64,000 nt of DNA from assembly GCA_021787565.1 (NCBI GenBank), contig JAJYLT010000002.1, positions 62,001 through 126,000 on the forward strand, given 5' to 3'. Positions 3,528-5,869 of this stretch are shown one piece after another. This stretch comes from Acidobacteriota bacterium. GTDB lineage: Bacteria > Acidobacteriota > UBA4820 > DSQY01. The position numbers and the translations under genes were made by a program. Numbering within the stretch: the first letter of the stretch is position 1; each line of letters opens with the position of its first letter. The notes under the pieces were generated by a model, which had not been told where the DNA came from, made no database searches, and saw only the letters and a program-made list of their open reading frames with translations.

Positions 3528-3884
3528 ATGCGCTTCCTCCTGAGGACCTTTCTGCTGATGGCCTCCATGGGAGTGGTCAGCATGCTCATGCCGGGCATCC
3601 ACTTCGACGGATTGCTCGCGCTCTTCTTCGCGGCCCTCACGGTGGGGCTGGCCAACGCGCTGCTCCGGCCCGTGCTCATCTTTTTCACGCTTCCCCTGGT
3701 GCTGGTGAGTCTGGGACTCTTCATCATCGTGATCAACGCGGGTTTGCTCTACCTGGCGGCGTGGATCGTGCCCGGCTTTCACCTGGCGGGATTCGGCTGG
3801 GCGCTCGCCGCGGCCGTCCTGATTTCGCTGGTCTCCTTCGTGTTGAACCGGCTGGTGCTGGGGCCCGACAGACGCAGGAGATAG
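3528..3884 (+). CDS. PF04020-type small integral membrane protein (phage holin family 4 by name only)
   Basis: A 118-aa protein made almost entirely of four hydrophobic segments, ending in a basic tail (LGPDRRRR). The pattern with VGLANALLRPVLIFFTLPL and a later NAGLLYLAAWIVPGFHL fits the chromosomal PF04020 family, annotated as phage holin family 4 but found widely outside phages. No phage genes are nearby, so a prophage role is not supported. It probably shares a transcript with the DUF3047 gene. The function is unknown. Confidence 0.75.
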   Translation: MRFLLRTFLLMASMGVVSMLMPGIHFDGLLALFFAALTVGLANALLRPVLIFFTLPLVLVSLGLFIIVINAGLLYLAAWIVPGFHLAGFGWALAAAVLISLVSFVLNRLVLGPDRRRR

Positions 3885-3905: not shown

Positions 3906-4364
3906 TTAGGGCTCCAGGTCCCCGCTCTTCTGCTGGCGCTTCCAGATGGAAAAGGCCGAAGGGCGCTTGAAACGGCCGATGACGTCGGAGACCTCGATGA
4001 CCGTGACGAAGGCCGAAGGATCTTCTGAGCGGATGATGTCGCGCAGCTCCCTGAGTTCAAATCGGGTCACGATGCAGAGCAGGACGTCGCTGACGCTGCC
4101 CGTGTAGGCTCCTTCCGCCTTCAGGATGGTGACTCCGCGGCCCCCCAGCAGGAAGATCGGAGCGTTGAAGATCAGCACCACCAGGCCGACGGGGGTGCGA
4201 AAGACGGCGTTGAGCAGAAGCGAGAGCCCCGTGACACCACCGCTCAGCAGGTGGTTGGGCATGATGAAGCTTCGGACGGAGAGAACAAAACAGAGCGTGC
4301 CAGCCACGAGCAGGAAAAATCGCCAGCCCTCTCGGGCGGCCCGCAGCCCCCACCGGCGTCTCAT
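3906..4364 (-). CDS. YitT family membrane protein with an in-frame internal deletion
   Basis: The N-terminus (GTLCFVLSVRSFIMPNHLLSG, then two more hydrophobic segments) matches the first three membrane spans of YitT proteins. The C-terminus (RGVTILKAEGAYTGSVSDVL... through FVTVIEVSDVIG) matches the cytosolic DUF2179 domain. Family members of roughly 280-300 aa have further membrane spans in between. Here TM3 (IFLLGG) runs straight into the DUF2179 domain, giving about 152 aa. The frame is kept, so a short product could be made, though transport function seems unlikely. The ATG at 4364 is chosen because a GAGGGGG motif precedes it. The gene is divergent from dgt. Confidence 0.7.
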   Translation of the reverse strand: MRRRWGLRAAREGWRFFLLVAGTLCFVLSVRSFIMPNHLLSGGVTGLSLLLNAVFRTPVGLVVLIFNAPIFLLGGRGVTILKAEGAYTGSVSDVLLCIVTRFELRELRDIIRSEDPSAFVTVIEVSDVIGRFKRPSAFSIWKRQQKSGDLEP

Positions 4365-4564: not shown

Positions 4565-5869
4565 ATGACCCGTAGCGACCACCACAACGCGGCCTGCGCC
4601 ACCAGGAACGGAGGCCTGAAGGCCTGGGCCACGGCGTGCGGCGGTTCGGTGAACCACGAACACCCGGCGGAGCACCCCGCCCTGCGGACCTTCTTTCAGC
4701 AGGATCGGGACCGGGTGCTCCACTCCGAGGCCTTTCGCCGCCTCGGTTACAAGACGCAGGTCTTCGTGGTCCACGAAGGCGATTTTTACCGGACGCGTCT
4801 TACCCACACGCTTGAGGTGTCTCAGGTGGCCAGGGGCTTGGCCTGCGGCCTTGGGGCGAGCGAAGACCTCTGCGAGGTGATCGCCTACGCGCACGATCTG
4901 GGCCATCCCCCTTTCGGCCATCGGGGGGAAGCGGCTCTGGACCGCCTCTTCGGCCGGGCCCTGGAGGAGAGGTTGGGCATTGGACGGCCCGAACAGGGAA
5001 AGGCCTTCGAACAGAACTTCCAGTCGTACCGCATCGTGAGCCGGCTGGAGCGGCGCTATCCGAAATTCCCGGGCCTGAACCTGAGCTGGCCCGCCCTCCA
5101 CGGCATCCTCAAACACCACACCGCCTTCGATTCCCCCACGCTGCCCTACCCCCTCGAAGTCAGCCAGCCCAAGGAGGCCGACCGCGTACGGCAATCCTAC
5201 CTCACGACCAACGGATGCTCGGGGGAGGCGCAGATCGTCAACCTGGCCGACCAGATCGCCTGGGTCACGCACGATCTCGAGGACGCCCTTCGGGTCCGGT
5301 TCATAACGGTGGAGGAACTGCGCGACCTTCCCATTCCGCTGCTTCAGAGGGCGTGGGAGCGGGCCCAGGGCGGCGCGCCGGGCTGGGAGAAGGATCGGAT
5401 TCTCTGGGGGCGGATCATGGTGCGCAACATGATCGATCTCCTCATCAACGATGTGCTTGCGGTTTCGGCCGAGGGCCTTTCGGCCATGAACTCCGTCGAG
5501 GAATTGATGGCCCGGCGCGAGCCCGTCGTGGACTTCTCTCCAGAGATGGCCTCCTCCGTCGGCGAGCTGCGGGAGTTCCTCTTCGCCCGCGTCTACACCC
5601 ATCCCGTCGTAGAGCGCATGTCCGCCAAGGCGGCCGGCATCCTGGAAAGGCTCTTCCAGAGCTTCACCTCGGACCTGCTGGAGAATGGCTCCATGGCCGC
5701 CCGGCTTCTGCCCCACACCACCCGCGAGCGCCTCGAGGAGGCGCCCGATGCCGTGGGCAAATTCCAGGTCGTGGTGGATTTTCTCGCGGGCATGACGGAC
5801 CGCTTCGCCACCGAGTTCTACCGCGTCCTCTACGCCCCCGACGAGAAGGGGATCACGAGCCTTTACTGA
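4565..5869 (+). CDS. dgt: dGTP triphosphohydrolase-like HD protein
   Basis: A 434-aa HD-superfamily phosphohydrolase expected to split dNTPs (typically dGTP) into nucleoside and triphosphate. It begins with the family opening DRDRVLHSEAFRRLGYKTQVF. Metal ligands lie in RLTHTLEV (H about residue 82) and in AHDLGHPPFGH (about 109-119). A GREGEAALD-like segment appears here as RGEAALDRLF. The length fits the non-enteric dGTPase-like group. GGGAGG lies upstream of the ATG, and the gene stands alone between the divergent yitT remnant and the tRNA. Confidence 0.9.
   Translation: MTRSDHHNAACATRNGGLKAWATACGGSVNHEHPAEHPALRTFFQQDRDRVLHSEAFRRLGYKTQVFVVHEGDFYRTRLTHTLEVSQVARGLACGLGASEDLCEVIAYAHDLGHPPFGHRGEAALDRLFGRALEERLGIGRPEQGKAFEQNFQSYRIVSRLERRYPKFPGLNLSWPALHGILKHHTAFDSPTLPYPLEVSQPKEADRVRQSYLTTNGCSGEAQIVNLADQIAWVTHDLEDALRVRFITVEELRDLPIPLLQRAWERAQGGAPGWEKDRILWGRIMVRNMIDLLINDVLAVSAEGLSAMNSVEELMARREPVVDFSPEMASSVGELREFLFARVYTHPVVERMSAKAAGILERLFQSFTSDLLENGSMAARLLPHTTRERLEEAPDAVGKFQVVVDFLAGMTDRFATEFYRVLYAPDEKGITSLY

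Follow-up and report, generated by a model that had tools for sequence, protein, structure and literature searches.

YitT-family proteins (PF02588 with PF10035, COG1284) combine a membrane domain with a DUF2179 domain. Compact membrane-anchored proteins carrying DUF2179 also exist in nature: UPF0316, which we take to be the name for the pairing of DUF5698 (PF18955) with DUF2179 (PF10035), is exemplified by a 193-aa protein in G230:C74. The gene described here retains the C-terminal DUF2179 match of the YitT family, without most of the membrane domain. In having a short membrane anchor followed by DUF2179 it resembles the UPF0316 type; however, the membrane part of the latter belongs to a different Pfam family, and the protein studied here has no PF18955 match. 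In PMC4944035, DUF2179 is linked to the solved structure 3HLU, and YitT and YczE proteins are described as having either one or two copies of DUF161. Likeness to PII proteins, together with peroxide-sensitive mutants, has been reported for BB0017 of Borrelia, a protein annotated as belonging to the YitT family (PMC6516651, PMC5333916). A short YitT form appears in no title among the listed literature matches for YitT, DUF2179, UPF0316 and DUF5698.

The gene lies in a window of 64,000 nt, the whole stretch of DNA that was analysed, from an Acidobacteriota bacterium (G000). Coordinates refer to this window, whose position 1 is C6:62001, unless a contig is named. The features discussed are the following.

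3528..3884, plus strand: PF04020 4-TM protein, convergent neighbour (Pfam)
3906..4364, minus strand: YitT deletion derivative of 152 aa, orthologue group A, with ATG at 4364; orthologue of the 298-aa YitT at G001:C109
3975..4139, minus strand: DUF2179 (PF10035 1-55 of 55), structural domain apparently without its first strand and helix (Pfam, G000:C6:65975-66139; structure comparison)
4136..4147, minus strand: deletion junction (base-by-base comparison with G001)
4137..4319, minus strand: N-terminal remainder of the YitT membrane domain (PF02588 2-62 of 205; Pfam, G000:C6:66137-66319)
4565..5869, plus strand: HD-domain, dGTPase-like protein, divergent neighbour (Pfam); also adjoins the G001 orthologue

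The reading frame is intact: the start codon and a purine-rich stretch ahead of the ATG are kept, and neither a stop nor a frameshift has accumulated. Pfam recognizes YitT_membrane at residues 16-76 (58.7 bits against a cut-off of 24.3) and DUF2179 at residues 76-130 (76.9 bits, above the curated cut-off). The full membrane domain of 205 Pfam positions is not present in this protein: the first match covers profile positions 2-62 only, against 2-204 in the G001 orthologue. The PF04020 gene adjoins the orthologue also in G001, G002, G005 and G007; we did not find it in the stretches covered for G003, G004 and G006, nor the HD/dGTPase-like neighbour in those covered for G002-G007.

We searched 60 genomes (the organism's own and 59 relatives) and obtained YitT matches in 18, its own included. 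Only one of the 59 relatives, G001, belongs to the same genus. At the same place in this genome we found an intact 298-aa orthologue with the same neighbours on both sides, the dGTPase-like and PF04020 proteins each being 95.6% identical between the two genomes. The flanking DNA is 93% identical on either side of a single gap (803/863 and 693/744); this identity and the shared neighbours show that the gene has the same ancestry as full-length YitT genes. The gap measures exactly 438 bp, or 146 codons, in frame, and G001 residues 75-220 are missing. Protein identity to G001 is 97-99% over the N-terminal 76-78 residues and 88-92% over the C-terminal 78-83. The in-frame loss of the middle of a YitT homologue, proposed in the initial annotation, is thus real in the assembled sequence; the loss was put there at 120-140 residues without a frameshift, of which the frame holds and the size proves slightly too small.

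The junction, predicted at about 4130-4160, was located at about 4136-4147. The sequence follows the N-terminal side of G001 down to 4143, with a single mismatch at 4146, and agrees with the C-terminal side from 4143 onwards. A CCGCG at 4140-4136 fits both sides of the breakpoint; otherwise only single bases are common to both in register. We considered a repeat-mediated deletion and found no direct repeat joining the two breakpoints beyond these shared bases. Relocation of the missing segment was likewise rejected: a search of the rest of the 3.47-Mb assembly yielded nothing beyond short stretches of matching DNA (the best with E 0.008 over 35 bases) and, at the protein level, a divergent paralogue at G000:C44 with 37% identity.

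That paralogue, which we call B, is a full-length YitT with an intact 301-aa frame (G000:C44:44939-45778, L023). Of the seven relatives whose group-A YitT could be read, six also have paralogue B; in the remaining one, G003, we found only a 32-position DUF2179 fragment, at C8. The two groups differ in their C-terminal ends, which read GEGF(R/K)P in B copies and GRF(K/R) in A copies.

What the deletion took away can be judged from an AlphaFold model of the intact G001 orthologue (pLDDT 77.9, pTM 0.61, alignment of 9 sequences). This model shows helices at 2-37, 43-55, 59-77, 80-99, 109-129, 137-148, 152-170 and 173-194, followed at 199-270 by a strand-helix-strand-strand-helix-strand domain. 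In its numbering the deletion removes 80-194 together with the first strand (199-206) and helix (209-220) of that domain. The retained stub consists of helices 2-37, 43-55 and 59-77, the second of which is too short to fully span the membrane. An N-terminal stub is indeed kept, as first annotated, although the "TM1-3" assigned to it would amount to two long helices and a short one rather than three full spans. In the intact protein, the alignment with the solved structure 3HLU spans residues 201-279 (E 2.8e-11) and begins about 20 residues ahead of the Pfam boundary, whereas in the short form it spans only residues 76-131 (E 2.6e-7). Foldseek matches the full-length model to 3HLU (E 9.5e-4), PstA (from 7e-3) and GlnK (from 2e-2), a PII-likeness that agrees with the reports on Borrelia BB0017 (PMC6516651, PMC5333916). 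The AlphaFold (AF2) model of the short form scores pLDDT 56.6 and pTM 0.28 (alignment of 10 sequences), and its best Foldseek match has E 3.1, with no PII-like fold; given the low confidence of this model and the few sequences behind it, we take this as supporting evidence only. Judged by alignment and structural model, the DUF2179 of the window protein is an incomplete PII-like fold whose first strand and helix have been deleted. The 55-position DUF2179 profile starts after this strand and helix, and the truncated fold is therefore hidden in two whole-looking Pfam matches. DUF2179 does follow the stub directly, as originally described, with a match to all 55 profile positions, but the domain itself would not be complete.

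Other YitT genes were surveyed for the same short form, a check on relatives that the initial annotation had suggested. Group-A orthologues are full length in all seven readable family members (G001-G007), with no stop seen in any of them; an eighth, in G008, is truncated where its contig ends and is left out of this count. Eight other alignment rows, comprising seven paralogue-B copies and one sequence from G009, which belongs to a different family of the same order, are also full length. Across 396 genomes of the phylum, themselves taken from a larger group, we obtained 85 PF02588 matches, distributed over 69 genomes. Seventy-six of these are full length, beginning at profile positions 1-5 and ending at 202-204. 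The nine partial ones comprise five at contig ends (G254 twice, G192, G008, G327), one that runs into a stretch of N (G279:C282), G340, G081 and the window copy, which alone among the 85 shows an internal-deletion architecture. A wider search of genome contigs, which may leave out near-identical records of the organism's own genome, gave 10 loci: nine hold the middle region, recognized by shared invariant columns, and the tenth (L033) is a 220-aa frame with no DUF2179 visible at its end. No second example of the short form was found among the 7 group-A orthologues, the 85 PF02588 matches in the phylum and these 10 loci. Of the signs that the initial annotation named as refuting its reading, lack of conservation of the short form is observed; a stop in relatives is not, since they have the whole gene.

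Substitutions differ between the two sides of the junction. Against G001, with junction codons 74-75 dropped, we counted no non-synonymous and 14 synonymous changes (0N/14S) in codons 1-73 and 7N (in 6 codons)/6S in codons 76-152, a contrast that is significant by Fisher's test (p=0.0019). This contrast arises partly from exceptional conservation on the left (p=0.037 relative to dgt and the PF04020 gene), where the 14 synonymous changes may all predate the deletion. Baselines between the two genomes are 20N/58S for dgt (omega 0.10), 6.5N/16.5S for the PF04020 gene (0.14) and 26N/46S for paralogue B (0.19). Set against dgt and the PF04020 gene, the counts to the right of the junction are of borderline significance (p=0.052), and with paralogue B included in the baseline they fall short of significance (p=0.12).

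Pairs of intact genes give a further reference. Omega values left and right are 0.27/0.14 for G001A-G007A, 0.23/0.16 for G002A-G007A, and 0.14 with no change on the right for G002A-G005A. Paralogue-B pairs give 0.33/0.05 (G002B-G007B), zero/zero (G002B-G005B) and 0.08/0.15 (G000B-G001B). Among the intact group-A pairs, the DUF2179 half is never the less conserved of the two, although it is in G000B-G001B. At residue 125 the window protein has Val where 15 of the 15 other aligned sequences have Ala, a residue that is not universal, distant homologues L030, L031 and L032 carrying others. Residue 98 is Ile, against Val in G001 and six outgroup orthologues, and residue 139 is Ser, against Asp or Ala in the same seven. 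For codons 80, 93 and 150, half of the six that changed, the residue of the window protein also occurs in some outgroup orthologue, and these changes therefore cannot be placed on its branch with certainty. Overall, the substitution pattern leans to relaxed constraint after the junction, a suggestive and borderline signal.

We consider it likely that the gene is a lineage-specific, probably non-functional deletion allele, an early-stage pseudogene of an ordinary YitT gene. By comparison with G001, a single 438-bp deletion, with breakpoints of little homology, would have removed codons 75-220 in one lineage after the split from this same-genus relative. The frame presumably survived by chance, an outcome with odds of 1 in 3, so that an intact frame is by itself no evidence of selection. 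According to the alignment and the AlphaFold prediction, the protein would retain the beginning of the membrane domain but lose the remainder, along with the strand and helix that open the PII-like domain; most likely it is poorly inserted or degraded and has no function. The loss may have been tolerated because the divergent full-length paralogue remains at G000:C44. The disruption is confined to this gene among close relatives, the orthologues being intact in 7/7 readable family members. The initial annotation had left the choice between a new functional form and a decaying gene. The intact relatives, the unique architecture, the truncated fold and the changes after the junction speak for decay, while the functional form found no positive support. 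What speaks against decay is the kept start and open frame, and the lack of amino-acid change ahead of the junction, although that conservation may wholly predate the deletion. As it stands, this is an ordinary recent event of gene damage, and it cautions that two complete-looking Pfam matches in an open frame can mask a truncated fold.

The absence of the middle region might also be an artefact of assembly or strain mixture, the organism having a full-length gene and the gap being a chimeric join or a minority variant in the consensus. That the genome is in 77 contigs and that its three nearest named relatives among the genome contigs searched are MAGs would fit such an origin. We find it unlikely, however, as the junction is internal to a contig of 172,634 bp, our searches placed the lost segment on no other contig, both sides of the junction show ordinary divergence from G001, and the breakpoints share only a few bases, without a joining direct repeat. 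So few shared bases are far below an assembler's overlap length.

If the assembled gene is taken as correct, its product might instead be a membrane-anchored, shortened DUF2179 sensor, perhaps an oligomer of half-size units with one suspected repeat each. In its favor, comparison with G001 shows the frame, the start and all residues of codons 1-73 unchanged, natural proteins of the DUF5698-DUF2179 type provide a compact precedent, and what remains of the membrane domain matches the first of two suspected repeats within it, the second being in the lost part. These repeats align over 33 columns with 30% identity (E 0.015), with an HHalign probability of only 3%; a control with the DUF2179 part gave E 0.39. 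Against a working sensor stand a PII-like domain without its first strand and helix, the restriction of the form to this genome among all relatives examined, the change at the Ala shared by the 15 other aligned sequences, and a short model, of low confidence, that matches no PII-like fold. We regard this reading as quite improbable. Its most specific version, a new half-size YitT with one membrane repeat and a trimmed PII-like domain, acting as a functional oligomeric sensor or as a modulator of the full-length paralogue, seems to us very improbable indeed. Were the short form functional after all, it would offer a minimal system for the poorly understood YitT/DUF2179 family.

Apart from the probable pseudogene in the window, three observations concern other YitT genes. 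A distant genome of the phylum holds a YitT remnant (G081:C15:253441-253800, L051) that matches profile positions 142-204 with a stop, followed by DUF2179; the product of the gene upstream looks similar to ribosome recycling factor. At G340:C135:22608-22940 (L053) we found a truncated YitT of 137 aa that covers PF02588 positions 3-114 and is devoid of DUF2179. Both are reduced YitT genes, as is the window copy. Unlike the latter, neither has an internal deletion: the G081 remnant keeps the 3' end only and has an internal stop, and the G340 gene ends without DUF2179. Finally, the group-A YitT genes of G002:C35 and G005:C388 (L040, L041) show patchy divergence, with 6N/15S in the 70 N-terminal codons, 1N/17S in the middle 148 and no difference in the last 74, a pattern that may reflect recombination.
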